Origin: an uncultured Paracoccaceae bacterium
GTDB taxonomy: Bacteria; Pseudomonadota; Alphaproteobacteria; Rhodobacterales; Rhodobacteraceae
Assembly (NCBI GenBank): GCA_947500825.1
Contig: CANMTR010000002.1
Span: 186,001-250,000, forward strand
DNA length: 64,000 bases
Direction of reading: 5' to 3'
A model generated the notes under the pieces. That model was not told the DNA's origin. It saw only the letters and a list, made by a program, of their open reading frames with translations, and did not search any database. Both the position numbers and the translations under genes were made by a program. Of this stretch, positions 31,021-54,523 are shown piece by piece. Numbering within the stretch: the first letter of the stretch is position 1; each line of letters opens with the position of its first letter.

Positions 31021-31363
31021 GCAAAAATCTGTTAATCCGGGGGGGCTGGGAGTACGTCATATGACTTGAATCCCACAATTTCTGGTCAGTGTGTTAACGC
31101 CCCTACCGGATATGGTATGAGCGAGACCGCTTAACCATAGATATGGTAAGACTTTTTTAAGGCATTTCAGCGCCTACAAGTGGGCGCCACGCCAAGCCCG
31201 CCCCGCACAGGCCGGTCTTCGTTAACAAAATGGCTCCGACGGGCTCCTGGTTCCCCGCTCTCCCCGCCCGATTCCCCCAAGGACCACGATTTCCCACGAA
31301 AGGTGCTCCGCCTCGCCTACCCTTCGCGCGGGGCCGGGAGGGTTAACGACCCGTTTATGCGTT
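31021..31363. other. Gene-free, relatively AT-rich region between the dcw leader and the DUF1127 gene
   Basis: No coding sequence was recognised. It contains the palindrome GTCATATGAC (31056-31065), a hairpin 31111-31139 (TATGGTATGAGCG / CGCTTAACCATA with one bulge), an overlapping alternative hairpin ACCAT-AGAT-ATGGT and a run of six T at 31153-31158. Several TTAAC words, including TTAACCAT, resemble CtrA half sites. The base composition is markedly lower in GC than the flanking genes. Confidence 0.5.
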
Positions 31364-31421
31364 TGCTGCATAGCAGCATTGAGCCAACGGTGGATTGTGC
31401 ATCTGCAGCAAGCGTCTATCT
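31364..31421 (+). promoter_or_regulatory. Promoter region of the DUF1127 gene with PhaR-like palindrome
   Basis: TGCTGC-ATA-GCAGCA (31364-31378) is a perfect palindrome containing CTGC-N3-GCAG, the form reported for PhaR sites in Rhodobacter. Downstream, TTGTGC (31395-31400) and CTATCT (31416-31421) are 15 bases apart and loosely fit an RpoH-type promoter, the class that drives the homologous locus in R. sphaeroides. The palindrome is certain; promoter class and regulator are inference. Confidence 0.4.
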
Positions 31422-31467
31422 TCATCCCAACGCCGGCGACGACGACCGCCAACCGAAAGAGACGAAG

Positions 31468-31680
31468 ATGACCCTGCTGACCGCCATGTACGCCCCCTCC
31501 AAAGGCAACGGCCGCCTCGACACCCTGCGCGACGGACTGCGCGCCCGGTTCGAGGCCTGGAAGACGTACCGCACCACGCTGAACGAACTTAACAGCCTGA
31601 GCGACCGCGAGCTCCACGACCTCGGCCTGCACCGCACAAGCCTGACTGCCGTGGCCCGCGACGCCGCCTACGGCGCATGA
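31468..31680 (+). CDS. DUF1127 small protein (CcaF1-like)
   Basis: A 70-residue protein whose second half is a DUF1127 domain (TLNELNSLSDRELHDLGLHR). In R. sphaeroides the DUF1127 protein CcaF1 (RSP_6037) is encoded just upstream of the stress-induced CcsR RNAs, is small and basic, and affects RNA levels. The same arrangement is seen here, with an array of CCUCCUCCC hairpins starting about 12 bases after the stop. The start follows GAGACGAAG. Confidence 0.88.
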   Translation: MTLLTAMYAPSKGNGRLDTLRDGLRARFEAWKTYRTTLNELNSLSDRELHDLGLHRTSLTAVARDAAYGA

Positions 31681-31689
31681 GATACCCTT

Positions 31690-31765
31690 TCGGAACGCCT
31701 CTCCTCCTCCCTGGGGCGTTCTGATCCCCGCGGCGGCACCGACCTCCTCCCCGGTGCCGCCGCGA
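31690..31765 (+). ncRNA. CcsR/cuckoo-type RNA 1
   Basis: Two hairpins, each with CCTCCTCCC in the loop (31703-31711 and 31743-31751). The first stem is GAACGCC/GGCGTTC and the second is the 10-bp GGCGGCACCG/CGGTGCCGCC. The loop is an anti-Shine-Dalgarno sequence. CcsR RNAs in R. sphaeroides are cut from the DUF1127 transcript and act in oxidative stress and C1 metabolism. Ends are approximate. Confidence 0.75.
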
Positions 31766-31780
31766 CCGAGACAACCAGTT

Positions 31781-31855
31781 ACGGGCGCCCTCTCCTCCTC
31801 CCTTGGGCGTGCGTGAGATGGCGGCGGCGTCCACCTCCTCCCGGGCGTCGCCGTC
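31781..31855 (+). ncRNA. CcsR/cuckoo-type RNA 2
   Basis: Two hairpins with loop motifs at 31794-31802 and 31834-31842. The second stem GGCGGCGTCC/GGGCGTCGCC has two G-U pairs. It is the first copy of a 178-bp duplicated block; its near-identical partner is RNA 4. Confidence 0.72.
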
Positions 31856-31869
31856 CCTAGAATACCGAG

Positions 31870-31945
31870 ACGCGGGTTCTCCGGCCTCCTCCCCGGAGGG
31901 CCCGTTCCGCGGCGGCACCGACCTCCTCCCCGGTGCCGCCGCGCA
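31870..31945 (+). ncRNA. CcsR/cuckoo-type RNA 3
   Basis: Two hairpins with loop motifs at 31885-31893 and 31922-31930. Stems are CTCCGG/CCGGAG and GGCGGCACCG/CGGTGCCGCC. The second hairpin is identical to that of RNAs 1 and 6. Its duplicated partner is RNA 5. Confidence 0.72.
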
Positions 31946-31958
31946 AGAACACCCAGTT

Positions 31959-32033
31959 GCGGGCGCCCTCTCCTCCTCCCTTGGGCGTGCGTGAGATGGC
32001 GGCGGCGTCCACCTCCTCCCGGGCGTCGCCGTC
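31959..32033 (+). ncRNA. CcsR/cuckoo-type RNA 4
   Basis: Loop motifs at 31972-31980 and 32012-32020, exactly 178 bases after those of RNA 2 and almost identical in sequence. This marks a tandem duplication of a two-RNA block. Confidence 0.72.
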
Positions 32034-32047
32034 CCCAGAACACCGAG

Positions 32048-32123
32048 ACGCGGGTTCTCCGACCTCCTCCCCGGAGGGCCCGTTCCGCGGCGGCGCCGAC
32101 CTCCTCCCCGGCGCCGCCGCGCA
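32048..32123 (+). ncRNA. CcsR/cuckoo-type RNA 5
   Basis: Loop motifs at 32063-32071 and 32100-32108, 178 bases after those of RNA 3. The second stem has changed from GGCGGCACCG to GGCGGCGCCG with the matching change CGGTGCC to CGGCGCC on the other arm, a compensatory change that preserves the hairpin. Confidence 0.72.
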
Positions 32124-32139
32124 AGAGACACCCGGATCG

Positions 32140-32215
32140 GGCGCCCTTCCTCTTCCCTTGGGGCGTCCGTGATAGAACGGCGGCACCGACCTCCTCCCCG
32201 GTGCCGCCGTTTTCG
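32140..32215 (+). ncRNA. CcsR/cuckoo-type RNA 6 with terminal hairpin
   Basis: The first loop is degenerate (CCTCTTCCC, 32149-32157) and the second intact (32190-32198). The last stem GGCGGCACCG/CGGTGCCGCC is followed by GTTTTCGTG, so it probably also serves as the intrinsic terminator of the DUF1127-RNA transcript, facing the convergent pcrA gene. Confidence 0.7.
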
Positions 32216-32244
32216 TGTCCGCTCCCCCGATCGGGACAATCTTG

Positions 32245-34635
32245 TCAGAACGGAACGTCGCCCGCCTCGTCCGCGGCGACGACGAAGCGGCCCACGACCT
32301 TCTTCGTCCCCGCCTTGTCGAAGGCGATCTCCAGCTTGTCGCCCTCCAGCCCCTCGACGGTGCCGTAGCCGAACTTGGTGTGGAACACCCGGTCGCCGGC
32401 GTCGTGGGGCGAGACGGCCTCGGCGTCCACGACCATGGCCTTGGTCTCGCGCGGCTGGCTCACCGGGCGGGACCGGGCGCGCGACTGCATCCGCCGCCAG
32501 CCCGGCGAGTTGTAGACATCCGCCCGGCTCGCCCGGTCGTGCAGGTCCGAGGCCTGGTTGGCCATGATCTGCGGCGAGGCGCTCGCGGCCATCCCCGCCG
32601 CGCCGTAGCCGCCGCCATAGAGGCCCGGCGGCGTCAGCACATCCACATGGGCCTCGGGCAGCTCGTCCACGAACCGCGACGGCAGCGCCGATTGCCACTG
32701 GCCATAGACCCGCCGGTTCGCCGCGAAGGAGATCGTGGCAACCTCCTCGGCGCGGGTGATGCCCACATAGGCCAGCCGCCGCTCCTCCTCGAGGCCCTTG
32801 AGGCCCTGCTCGTCCATGGAGCGCTGGGAGGGGAACAGCCCGTCCTCCCAGCCGGGCAGGAACACGGCCGGAAACTCCAGGCCCTTGGCCGCGTGCAGCG
32901 TCATGATCGACACCTTTGGCCCGCCCGTCTCGGTCTCGTTGTCCATGATCAGCGCCACGTGCTCCAGGAAGCCCTGAAGGTTCTCGAACCCGTCCAGCGC
33001 CTTGACCAGCTCCTTGAGGTTCTCGAGCCGCCCCGGCGCCTCGGGCGTGCGGTCGGCCTGCCACATGGCGGTATAGCCCGACTCCTCCAGGATCTGCTCG
33101 GCCAGATCCACGTGGTTCTGCTCCTGGTCGCGGGCGCCGTGGGCCCAGCGCGCCACCGCGTCCACCAGCACCCGCAGCTCGGCCGCGCCCTTGCCGCCCA
33201 GCCCCTTGTCCGCAAGGAGGATGCGCGCCCCGTCCAGCAGGCTCGCGCCGTTCTCGCGCGCGGTCACCTGGATCTTCTGCCGGGCCTTGTCGCCCAGTCC
33301 GCGCTTGGGCGTGTTCACCACCCGCTCGAACGCGAGGTCGTCGTCGGGGCTCACGGCCAGGCGGAAATAGGCCATGGCGTCGCGGATCTCCATCCGCTCG
33401 TAGAAGCGCGGCCCCCCGATGACGCGGTAGGGCAGCCCGATGGTCAGGAACCGGTCCTCGAAGGCGCGCATCTGGTGCGAGGCCCGCACCAGGATCGCGA
33501 TCTCGTCGAGGCCCGTCTCGCGCACCCCGCGGGTGCCGCGGCCCATGGCCTCGATCTCCTCGCCGATCCAGCGCGCCTCCTCGTCGCCGTCCCAGTGCCC
33601 GATCAGGCGGACCTTGTGGCCCTCCTCCTCGGCGGTCCAGAGCGTCTTGCCCAGGCGTCCCTCGTTGGCGTCGATCACGCCCCCGGCAGCCGCCAGGATA
33701 TGGGGCGTGGAGCGATAGTTCTGCTCCAGCCTGACCACCCGCGCGCCGGGGAAGTCCTTCTCGAATCGCAGGATGTTGCCCACCTCGGCGCCCCGCCAGC
33801 CATAGATCGACTGGTCGTCGTCGCCCACGCAGCAGATGTTGCGGTGCCCCTGGGCCAGAAGGCGCAGCCACATGTACTGCGCCACGTTGGTGTCCTGGTA
33901 CTCGTCCACCAGCACGTAGCGAAACCAGCGCTGGTACTGGGCCAGAACGTCCTCGTGGGTGCGGAAGATCGTCAGCATGTGCAGCAGCAGGTCGCCGAAA
34001 TCCACGGCGTTGAGGCTCCGCAGGCGCTGCTGATAGTAGTCGTAGAGCTCCGTGCCCCGGTTGTCGAAGGCGGAGGCCTCGCTCGCGGGCACCTTGTCGG
34101 GCGTCCAGGCGCGGTTCTTCCAGCCGTCGATGATCCCGGCGAGCTGGCGCGGCATCCAGCGCTTCTCGTCGATGTTCTCGGCCACGATGAGCTGCTTCAT
34201 CAGCCGCTGCTGGTCGTCGGTGTCCAGGATCGTGAAGTTCGACTTCAGCCCCACCAGTTCGGCGTGGCGGCGCAACAGCTTGACGCAGATCGCGTGGAAG
34301 GTGCCGAGCCACGGCATCCCCTCCACCGTCTCGCCCATGAGCGCGGCCACGCGCCCCTTCATCTCCCGCGCGGCCTTGTTGGTGAAGGTGACCGCCAGGA
34401 TCTCGTTGGGCCGCGCGCGCCCCTGCACCATCAGGTGGGCGATGCGCGCCGTCAGGGCCTTGGTCTTGCCCGTCCCCGCCCCCGCCAGCATCAGGACGGG
34501 GCCGTCGAGCGTCTCCACCGCCTCCCTCTGGGCGGGGTTCAGACCGTCCAGGTAGGGGGTCGGCCGGGCCGCCATCGCGCGATTCGACAGGGACACCGCC
34601 CCCTCGAATGCCTCGGATTCGTCGAAATCATCCAT
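32245..34635 (-). CDS. UvrD/PcrA-type ATP-dependent DNA helicase
   Basis: A 796-residue superfamily 1A helicase. Walker A AGAGTGKT is at residues 51-58, motif II is VDEYQDTN, motif III GDDDQSIYGWRGA, and motif VI VGITRAEE. A C-terminal Tudor-like region ends the protein (TKFGYGTVEGLEGDKLEI), as in PcrA. It unwinds DNA 3' to 5' in repair and replication. It converges on the RNA array. Confidence 0.95.
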   Translation of the reverse strand: MDDFDESEAFEGAVSLSNRAMAARPTPYLDGLNPAQREAVETLDGPVLMLAGAGTGKTKALTARIAHLMVQGRARPNEILAVTFTNKAAREMKGRVAALMGETVEGMPWLGTFHAICVKLLRRHAELVGLKSNFTILDTDDQQRLMKQLIVAENIDEKRWMPRQLAGIIDGWKNRAWTPDKVPASEASAFDNRGTELYDYYQQRLRSLNAVDFGDLLLHMLTIFRTHEDVLAQYQRWFRYVLVDEYQDTNVAQYMWLRLLAQGHRNICCVGDDDQSIYGWRGAEVGNILRFEKDFPGARVVRLEQNYRSTPHILAAAGGVIDANEGRLGKTLWTAEEEGHKVRLIGHWDGDEEARWIGEEIEAMGRGTRGVRETGLDEIAILVRASHQMRAFEDRFLTIGLPYRVIGGPRFYERMEIRDAMAYFRLAVSPDDDLAFERVVNTPKRGLGDKARQKIQVTARENGASLLDGARILLADKGLGGKGAAELRVLVDAVARWAHGARDQEQNHVDLAEQILEESGYTAMWQADRTPEAPGRLENLKELVKALDGFENLQGFLEHVALIMDNETETGGPKVSIMTLHAAKGLEFPAVFLPGWEDGLFPSQRSMDEQGLKGLEEERRLAYVGITRAEEVATISFAANRRVYGQWQSALPSRFVDELPEAHVDVLTPPGLYGGGYGAAGMAASASPQIMANQASDLHDRASRADVYNSPGWRRMQSRARSRPVSQPRETKAMVVDAEAVSPHDAGDRVFHTKFGYGTVEGLEGDKLEIAFDKAGTKKVVGRFVVAADEAGDVPF

Positions 34636-40591: not shown

Positions 40592-40666
40592 GCGGGCGTA
40601 GCTCAGGGGTAGAGCATTACCTTGCCAAGGTAAGGGTCGAGAGTTCGAATCTCTTCGCCCGCTCCA
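40592..40666 (+). tRNA. tRNA-Gly (GCC), copy 1
   Basis: A 75-nt gene including the encoded CCA. Acceptor arms are GCGGGCG and CGCCCGC, the anticodon loop is TTGCCAA (anticodon GCC), and the T loop is GTTCGAATC-like. Confidence 0.97.
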
Positions 40667-40686: not shown

Positions 40687-40761
40687 GCGGGCGTAGCTCA
40701 GGGGTAGAGCATTACCTTGCCAAGGTAAGGGTCGAGAGTTCGAATCTCTTCGCCCGCTCCA
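40687..40761 (+). tRNA. tRNA-Gly (GCC), copy 2
   Basis: Identical over all 75 nt to the gene at 40592-40666 and 20 bases downstream of it, so a recent or gene-converted duplication, probably on one transcript. Confidence 0.97.
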
Positions 40762-52946: not shown

Positions 52947-54523
52947 ATCATCTCCTGCGCCTTCGCGGCCTTTCTCTGCCGCTCCAGCTTCTTGAGGTTC
53001 TGCGCCCGGAACCGCTCCTGCACGTTGGGCGCCCCCTCCCAGACGCCGGCGGTCTCGCCCGCGCCCACGCCCTGGTAGAAGGCCCGCATCTTGCCCATCC
53101 GCTCGGCATTGCCGATGGCCGCGTTGACCACCTGCGCCAGGCTCCCCGCGCCGGCGGGCCCCATCAGCGGCCGCGCCGAGATCAGGTTGGTGAAGTAGAG
53201 GCTCGGAATTCCGAGCTCCTTTCCCTTCTGCACCACGGGCGTCGTTCCGATCGCCAGGTCGGGCCGGATCGCCTCCATGGCCGACAGGTCCTGCTCCAGG
53301 CTCGCGCGGAACACGACCTTGGTGCCCTTCGCCTCCAGCCAGTCCTTGTCGGCCAGGGCATGGGGCGTCTTTGGGCAGGCGGTGCCGACGTAAGGCACGT
53401 CCGCCCCGCTCTCGATCAGCAGGCGCGCCACCAGCAGCTCCGACCCCTCGTAGCCCGAAAGGGTCACGGTCCCGTCGATCCGCGCGCCCCCGAGGGCCCC
53501 GCGGATCGCCGGCAGCACCGCGTCCTTGGCCGCCGCGACCCGCTCCGCGGCCACGCCGAACGCCTCTCCCACGGCTTCCAGCCACGCCGCAGTCCCGTCG
53601 TATCCCACGGGCGCCGAGCCGATCACCGGCCGTCCCGCGCGCTCGAACTCGCGAATCGCGGAGGTGTAGAACGGATGGATCGCCGCCACCGCCCCGCAAT
53701 CGAGCGCCGCGTAAAGCTCGCGCCATTCCCGCGCCGGCACGACCGGCCCCGCGGCCAGCCCCATGGGGGCGAGCATCCCCCCGATCTGCATCGGGTCGGC
53801 GGGAAACATCTCCCCCAGCAACGTCACGCTCGGCCGGTCCTCGACCCCGGCGCGCGGTCGCCTAACGGGGCCGGCCTCGGCCTCCTCCCGCGCCCGCGCC
53901 AGCATGGCGCCCGCCAGCACGTCCTTGGCCTCCGCATGGGTCGGCACGCCGAAGCCCGGAACGTCGATCCCGATGATCCGCACCCCGTTGATATCCTTGG
54001 GCAGAAGCCGCAGAGGCACGCCCGAGGCGGTGGGCACGCACAGGTTCGTCACCACGATCGCGTCGTACCGCTCCGGGTCCGCCATCTCGTGGACCGAATC
54101 GCGGATATCCTCGAACAGCTTGCCCGTCACCAGCGTCTCGGAGGAGAACGGCACGTATCCGATCGAGCGGCGCGCGCCGTAGAAGTGGCTCACGAAACTC
54201 AGGCCATAGACGCAGCAGGCCGAGCCCGACAGCACCGTGCCCACCCGCCGCATCCTGAGCCCCGTGCGCAAGGAGCCGAAGGCGGGGCACATGCTCTGCG
54301 GCTTGTCGTGGGGCCCTTGCGGATAATCGGCGGCGTAGCGGTCCAGAAGCTCCGACTGCCCCGCCTCCCGCGCGGCCGCCTCCATGGCCCCCGCGCCCGC
54401 GTGGCAGCCCATCCCGTCGCCCGCACGGGGATCGGCGGCAAGGTCCGGGGCGGCGCCGTCGACGGCCTCGCCCTCTATCACCTCGGCCGTCTTGGCGTCG
54501 TCGTACTCGACTTCTCTCGCCAT
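52943..54523 (-). CDS. bchY: Chlorophyllide reductase subunit Y
   Basis: A 526-residue nitrogenase-like subunit with MCPAFGSLRTGLRMRR, SACCVYGLSF and YVGTACPKTPHA regions typical of BchY. It partners BchZ. The ATG at 54523 (AGGGA upstream) is preferred; an in-frame GTG at 54541 would add six residues. A copy of the dispersed 5' element ends 11 bases upstream. Confidence 0.96.
   Translation of the reverse strand: MAREVEYDDAKTAEVIEGEAVDGAAPDLAADPRAGDGMGCHAGAGAMEAAAREAGQSELLDRYAADYPQGPHDKPQSMCPAFGSLRTGLRMRRVGTVLSGSACCVYGLSFVSHFYGARRSIGYVPFSSETLVTGKLFEDIRDSVHEMADPERYDAIVVTNLCVPTASGVPLRLLPKDINGVRIIGIDVPGFGVPTHAEAKDVLAGAMLARAREEAEAGPVRRPRAGVEDRPSVTLLGEMFPADPMQIGGMLAPMGLAAGPVVPAREWRELYAALDCGAVAAIHPFYTSAIREFERAGRPVIGSAPVGYDGTAAWLEAVGEAFGVAAERVAAAKDAVLPAIRGALGGARIDGTVTLSGYEGSELLVARLLIESGADVPYVGTACPKTPHALADKDWLEAKGTKVVFRASLEQDLSAMEAIRPDLAIGTTPVVQKGKELGIPSLYFTNLISARPLMGPAGAGSLAQVVNAAIGNAERMGKMRAFYQGVGAGETAGVWEGAPNVQERFRAQNLKKLERQRKAAKAQEMI

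Follow-up and report, generated by a model that had tools for sequence, protein, structure and literature searches.

The locus that follows 31468 bp of the window (the whole 64-kb stretch of DNA that was analysed) is very probably a ccaF1-CcsR ("CIN1"/cuckoo) operon, in which one transcript would carry a CcaF1-like gene, six two-hairpin RNAs and a terminator hairpin. A block of ~70 bp was found to recur upstream of most ccaF1-CcsR operons (96 upstream regions), and it is a new lead beyond the earlier sequence-only reading of this DNA, which did not mention it. We lean towards the view that an LsrB/VtlR-type regulator, a protein that has been called Rhizobiales-only, occurs widely in this Rhodobacterales family and exerts direct control over the operon via two boxes in this block.

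Organisation and family assignment of the locus

The operon and its right-hand border were composed of the following features:

31468-31680, + strand: DUF1127 gene, CcaF1-like, 70 aa (PF06568, E 5.2e-13)
31687-31766, + strand: CcsR-like RNA 1 (R1), two anti-Shine-Dalgarno (anti-SD) hairpins (RF02791, 39.4 bits, E 7.7e-8)
31778-31859, + strand: CcsR-like RNA 2 (R2; RF02791, 34.2 bits)
31867-31947, + strand: CcsR-like RNA 3 (R3; RF02791, 38.2 bits)
31956-32037, + strand: CcsR-like RNA 4 (R4; RF02791, 27.4 bits), 98% identity to RNA 2
32045-32125, + strand: CcsR-like RNA 5 (R5; RF02791, 39.0 bits), 96% identity to RNA 3
32134-32213, + strand: CcsR-like RNA 6 (R6; RF02791, 37.8 bits), first loop CCTCTTCCC
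32176-32218, + strand: second hairpin of RNA 6 plus TTTT, candidate terminator (fold -25.9 kcal/mol)
32245-34635, - strand: convergent UvrD-type helicase gene (PF00580/PF13361), the boundary of the locus

Twelve CCTC(C/T)TCCC loops were located between 31703 bp and 32198 bp (+ strand), forming six two-hairpin units directly 3′ of the DUF1127 gene and separated from each other by short spacers. The first stem of the array begins nine bases after the end of the gene (31680). The loops start at 31703, 31743, 31794, 31834, 31885, 31922, 31972, 32012, 32063, 32100, 32149 and 32190, all on the + strand; eleven are CCTCCTCCC and the one at 32149 is CCTCTTCCC, so written as RNA eleven are exactly CCUCCUCCC and one is CCUCUUCCC. 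Elsewhere in the 64-kb window CCTCCTCCC was found only twice on both strands, at 53881 (+) and 26528 (-). Folding of the array was predicted to form all 12 stems and to leave each of the 12 motifs unpaired. The sequence-only reading had described twelve loops, one of them a close variant, in ~530 bases after a DUF1127 gene, and the coordinates and the fold confirm this description. Matches to the DUF1127 protein at E ≤ 1e-5 were present in 30 of the 60 genomes searched, including the source genome.

The same reading had likened the arrangement to CcaF1 and the CcsR RNAs, a comparison that is upheld by the DUF1127 domain, by the six CcsR1 matches and by homologous DUF1127-array loci in many relatives. 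It had also suggested a covariance-model search for the CcsR family, and this bore the assignment out in part: six of six units matched CcsR1 (27.4-39.4 bits, best E 7.7e-8) but the gathering score of 65.3 was missed. The three R. capsulatus units listed for this model, at 50.5, 45.8 and 38.1 bits, also fell below gathering, and a CcsR1 scan of 8 related loci (E ≤ 0.001) revealed a single unit that passed it, in locus L094 (73.2). We treat the scores below gathering as a limit of the Rfam model and not as proof of non-membership. The alpha-r14 model (RF02344) also matched the array, at 45.5, 45.3 and 40.5 bits, without reaching its gathering score of 58.8, and its best match covered parts of neighbouring two-hairpin units. 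When the whole window was compared with Rfam at gathering thresholds only two tRNAs were returned; two tandem tRNA-Gly(GCC) genes lie at 40592-40666 and 40687-40761.

In the published descriptions, on which our comparison with R. sphaeroides rests, the ccaF1-CcsR1-4 operon of that species (RSP_6037; RF02791; CIN1, cuckoo) has, as here, a DUF1127 protein of ~70 aa, tandem RNAs (PMC10253847) and two anti-SD stem-loops per RNA, as in RSs0680a (PMC3927594). It also has a terminator at the end (PMC10253847), to which the candidate terminator hairpin here would correspond. The R. capsulatus locus was compared by sequence. The present operon differs from that of R. sphaeroides in having six RNAs rather than four and in scoring below Rfam gathering. 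It shares identical CCUCCUCCC loops with S. meliloti alpha-r14/NfeR1 (RF02344), whereas each NfeR1 RNA has three hairpins and its promoter is of the RpoD type, and a DUF1127 gene is unmentioned for NfeR1 in the parts of the report consulted (PMC10746234). Two stretches of the P. marisminoris array (L043) exceed the alpha-r14 gathering score. In Breoghania corrubedonensis (L110:2662-3884) a DUF1127 gene is followed by four alpha-r14 RNAs above gathering and a weaker fifth. Because these stretches and RNAs exceed the alpha-r14 gathering score, the line between CcsR and alpha-r14 is not sharp, and the Breoghania array bridges the CcsR and NfeR1 styles.

Fold, terminator and array length

A 178-bp tandem repeat (96% identical) contains R2 with R3 and R4 with R5. 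Between R3 and R5 one stem changes from GCACCG...CGGTGC to GCGCCG...CGGCGC, an A-U to G-C replacement on both arms; this compensated difference had been pointed out in the sequence-only reading and is confirmed by the sequence. Against this, the first hairpin of R5 carries an uncompensated G-to-A change adjoining the loop and has lost one closing pair. Selection for the fold, which had been argued from the R3/R5 pair alone, was supported more broadly by an arm-swap comparison covering 71 arrays with 572 hairpins. Nine or more of ten pairs formed in 70% of the hairpins with their own partner and in 13% with a 3′ arm from another locus, and the mean number of pairs was 9.0 with the own arm versus 7.2 with the swapped arm. 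The loop was CCTCCTCCC or CCTCCTCCT in 564 of the 572 hairpins, a count that overstates its conservation because the loops were picked by the pattern CCTC(C/T)TC. With the same search pattern (CCTC, C or T, TC) the exact loop CCTCTTCCC was found in 1 of 572 loops of the 71 arrays. A fixed loop with variable stems has likewise been described in Rhizobiales relatives (PMC3927594). One covariance model lost part of the first hairpin from its consensus structure and supports no claim made here.

The twelfth hairpin is followed by TTTT. Of 71 arrays, 49 had a run of at least four T residues behind their last hairpin, compared with 17 of 501 inner hairpins. As such runs are concentrated after last hairpins, the twelfth anti-SD hairpin probably doubles as an intrinsic terminator. 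A generic intrinsic-terminator scan, which had a loop limit of 8, did not list the end of the array, where the loop is 10.

Analysis of 72 complete loci (80 were fetched) revealed between 0 and 15 loops, with 12 or more in 8 of the 72. Among 30 loci that came from a genome search, 5 had at least 12 loops, the window's own among them; the two surveys overlap in one locus, L013 of the 30-locus set being L043 of the 72-locus set. The loop counter joins adjacent motifs and ends an array at a gap of 130 bases, so that some arrays are undercounted (L110, for example, was given 6 loops and has four alpha-r14 RNAs). The count of six RNAs made in the sequence-only reading stands, while the rarity that it implied does not, since 8 of 72 loci have at least 12 loops. 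Six as an exceptional number is ruled out by arrays with 14-15 loops, and six RNAs are therefore not remarkable. Overall, this is a rather long example of a known operon type, and it is well preserved. When the RNA units were typed by identity and order, the window read A-B-C-B-C-D and the sister genome G005 A-B-C-B-D (five RNAs), from which it follows that a C unit was gained in the window or lost in G005. The best match of unit 1 in this comparison was a near tie, at 85% and 86%. Two relatives placed in the same genus by a genome search (G002 and G012) share their promoter sequences with Palleronia abyssalis and P. marisminoris (L011 with L040 and L013 with L043), so that the source genome is most likely a Palleronia. 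To a family whose function is still under study, the present locus contributes a longer array, along with a survey of copy number (0-15 loops).

The promoter block and a candidate regulator

The block upstream of the DUF1127 gene contained the following features:

31358-31371, + strand: upstream LysR-type box TGCG-TTTGCT-GCAT (TGCA-N6-GCAT with one mismatch)
31364-31378: perfect dyad TGCTGC-ATA-GCAGCA, overlapping the upstream box
31367-31381, + strand: VtlR/LsrB-like 15-mer TGCATAGCAGCATTG, which matches the VtlR motif in reverse complement except at 2 positions
31395-31422, + strand: candidate core promoter, RpoH-like (-35 TTG at 31395-31397, -10 CTATCTT at 31416-31422)
31398-31411, + strand: downstream LysR-type box TGCA-TCTGCA-GCAA, also with one mismatch and with its start 40 bp from that of the upstream box

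Across the operons the block is laid out as two TGCA-N6-GCAT LysR-type boxes, 39-40 bp apart, with the downstream box flanked by TTG and a CYATNTT core; in the window the boxes have one mismatch each and are 40 bp apart. The core here has the form TTG-N18-CTATCTT, a putative RpoH-type core by comparison with a consensus taken in part from a figure legend (PMC10673084). In R. sphaeroides the operon is reported to be under RpoHI/HII control (PMC10253847). A generic sigma-70 promoter scan listed no site. TTGTGC was found in 88 of the 96 upstream regions, of which 80, by our count, agreed with the window's TTGCTGCATAGCAGCATTG in at least 15 of the 19 positions.

The exact box TGCA-N6-GCAT was present in 70 of 92 unique upstream regions, against a mean of 2.0 (maximum 7) in shuffles and 0 for the reversed motif. 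The box pair, with at most one mismatch in each and a spacing of 39 or 40 bp, was found in up to 77 of the 92 (57 at 40 bp and 20 at 39 bp; shuffles 0.08, maximum 1). These regions derive from a set of 96 that was chosen partly for having arrays, and 14 loci were first left out. The pair was present in 5 of the 14, each with at least one loop, and 8 of the 9 without it were loopless. Ten of the left-out loci had the pair in 4 of 5 cases with at least one loop (it was absent from L018) and in 0 of 5 loopless cases; in the four loci without a usable start it was found only in L089 (8 loops). Among 68 complete loci the box pair was associated with loop number (p 0.005, with relatives that are not independent). 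A strict pairing of boxes and array was rejected for the same 68 loci, as the box pair occurred in 52 of 60 with at least two loops yet also in 3 of 8 with fewer.

The VtlR motif CAATGCAGCCATGCA has been reported in PMC12595884. On the opposite strand it shows two differences from the window's TGCATAGCAGCATTG and one from 19 of the 96 upstream regions, and it occurs within three mismatches in 82 of 96, versus 2 of 96 for shuffled motifs. A search of the source genome with the pattern TGCATRGCWGCATTG returned the ccaF1 promoter as the sole perfect place, and allowing up to two mismatches gave 6 places versus 2 for a reversed control. The R. capsulatus promoter (L087) is a weaker form, with 15 of 19 block positions and three mismatches to the VtlR motif. 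A fair objection to a VtlR/LsrB site is that GCAGCATTG has an A where the published formula GCAT-N3-TG-N3-T (PMC7486931) has the T of TG. The S. meliloti NfeR1 promoter is reported to have an LsrB site, TGCA-N6-GCAT, at -72 to -60, close to that of AbcR1 (PMC10746234); the upstream box here resembles it in lying at about -71 to -58 from the putative start.

Two lone two-hairpin CcsR-like RNAs were also found in the source genome, at L003:1501-1575 (contig C29, 38.2 bits) and L006:1501-1575 (C17, 36.4 bits). Their flanks are alike, and the search of this genome for DUF1127 lists only C2 and C4. About 50 bases upstream of them lies TGCAGCATTGGCGCTGCAGCGCAGAAT, a possible degenerate version of the array promoter.

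The most likely switch for the operon is an LsrB/VtlR-type LysR regulator acting with the putative RpoH-type core promoter. With the LysR protein that adjoins trxB in Microvirga as the query, one match at E ≤ 1e-50 was found in the source genome, and matches were found in 34 of 35 other genomes of the family (the matchless one is 85% complete) and in 46 of all 60 genomes searched. The best return match of the source-genome protein was the trxB-side gene in Microvirga, making the hit reciprocal, and also in Breoghania; in G036 and G049 its best match was the gene found by the Microvirga query. Microvirga also encodes a 42% paralogue. In the structure database the best match was 9HH1 (E 1.3e-72), with which the protein has in common the stretch LHLSQSA(V/I)SRQ, presumably the recognition-helix region. 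9HH1 is the Agrobacterium LsrB of PMC11975290. On the strength of the reciprocal best hits and the structure-database match, the source genome appears to encode an LsrB orthologue. LsrB has been called unique to Rhizobiales (PMC11975290), and the putative orthologues in this family disagree with that statement; the results thus bear on the reported restriction.

The known VtlR/LsrB regulon (Brucella, Agrobacterium, Sinorhizobium) includes DUF1127 genes (in Brucella) and the AbcR-type and NfeR1 sRNAs (PMC12595884, PMC7486931, PMC10746234), and both kinds of target, a DUF1127 gene and anti-SD sRNAs, stand in this one operon. Synteny of vtlR with trxB has been reported (PMC7486931), whereas trxB is not beside the orthologue in the source genome; it adjoins an Lrp-type gene there, and synteny was rejected as a way of locating the regulator, which was found by sequence. 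Autoregulation as a general feature of the LsrB orthologues was likewise rejected, as exact boxes were present upstream of lsrB in 1 of 35 family genomes (the source genome's own) and 0 of 6 others, with a shuffle mean of 0.41 and maximum of 4 for the 35. Directly before the LsrB orthologue of the source genome, L149:3820-3833 reads TGCAGGTGCAGCAT and is shortly followed by CCCATCTG; the sister genome G005 has one-mismatch versions of these boxes, and they are exact in 0 of 34 other family genomes. Against LsrB control of the operon stand the occurrence of the box pair in 3 of 8 loci that have no more than one loop and its absence from 8 of 60 with two or more, the lack of a conserved box at lsrB and the location of trxB elsewhere. 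A literature search that mostly excluded subscription papers returned no report of LsrB/VtlR control of a ccaF1-CcsR operon.

In addition to the RpoH sigma factors known from the literature, the block suggests a candidate switch for ccaF1/CcsR, which would link the CcsR and NfeR1/AbcR sRNA systems, so far studied separately, under one regulator. If this is true, LsrB, DUF1127 proteins and anti-SD sRNAs would form an old alphaproteobacterial circuit in which Rhodobacterales keep the protein and the RNAs in one operon, the Rhizobiales cases in the reports consulted being at separate loci.

Proposed mechanism, alternatives and candidate targets

By analogy with work on R. sphaeroides and S. meliloti, transcription would start ~40 bases before the DUF1127 gene and run through the six RNAs to the twelfth hairpin, with stress input via an RpoH-type polymerase and probably a LysR regulator. 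RNase E together with CcaF1 would then cleave this transcript, releasing the protein message along with about six RNAs of ~75-80 nt, as the R. sphaeroides operon, its RpoHI/HII promoter and its processing by RNase E and CcaF1 suggest (PMC10253847, PMC8625941, PMC8307010). Each RNA would show two loops, nearly all CCUCCUCCC, that may pair with purine-rich ribosome-binding sites and lower the translation of sensitive messages under stress. The length of the array would set the dose, whole RNA units being gained or lost. The sequence-only reading had offered two ideas for the loops, titration of an RNA-binding protein and pairing with ribosome sites, and the second appears the better supported, by analogy with S. 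meliloti NfeR1: mutation of all three of its anti-SD seeds abolished ntrB silencing (PMC10746234). CcaF1 also complements a phosphate phenotype that was ascribed to protein-protein contacts (PMC12501420, 2025), and so it may act beyond RNA.

The first of the two ideas, in which the array is mainly a titrating decoy whose CCUCC-rich loops, on a long 3′ UTR, bind CcaF1 or another protein, with discrete RNAs as minor products, seems to us unlikely. Stems that vary with their pairing kept and a wide range of copy number would be expected if the total of loops outweighed the individual RNAs, and CcaF1 is reported to bind RNA (PMC12501420); the seeds of the related NfeR1, however, silence a message through pairing (PMC10746234), and for the CcsR RNAs of R. 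sphaeroides both processing and message targets have been reported (PMC8307010).

The anti-SD core is CCUCC. It is contained in the loop, and with 12 loops per transcript the RNAs could have a global effect, in which they rival the 16S anti-SD for binding to ribosome sites and depress translation as a whole. We regard this as rather improbable, because the loop is longer than the anti-SD core and perfect nine-base complements near an ATG are few. A scan for full nine-base complements 2-10 bases before ATG (GGGAGGAGG-N2-10-ATG) listed 18 matches in 3.9 Mb, two of them at one site, versus 2 for the control, and by our judgement two of the 18 are convincing gene starts. That the array is a decaying repeat, functionless at present in the source genome, can be given hardly any credence: the recent 178-bp duplication, the loop off consensus and the lost closing pair of R5 would fit it, but 12 of 12 stems form in the predicted fold, one difference between the duplicates is compensated, and the promoter and terminator patterns recur in relatives.

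Under the preferred reading, pairing of individual RNAs with ribosome sites, the two convincing gene starts are candidate targets, one being that of an FGGY sugar kinase (L171) and the other that of an NMT1-type ABC transporter binding protein (L176). Most target candidates of NfeR1 are ABC transport systems (PMC10746234). At L176:1501-1520 the ribosome site of the binding-protein gene, GGGAGGAGG, is perfectly complementary to the loop. Matches to L176 at E ≤ 1e-60 were found in 3 other genomes of the 60 searched; the full nine-base site is kept in none of these three orthologues, of which that in G033 retains GGGAGGAG and that in G007 GGGAGGA.
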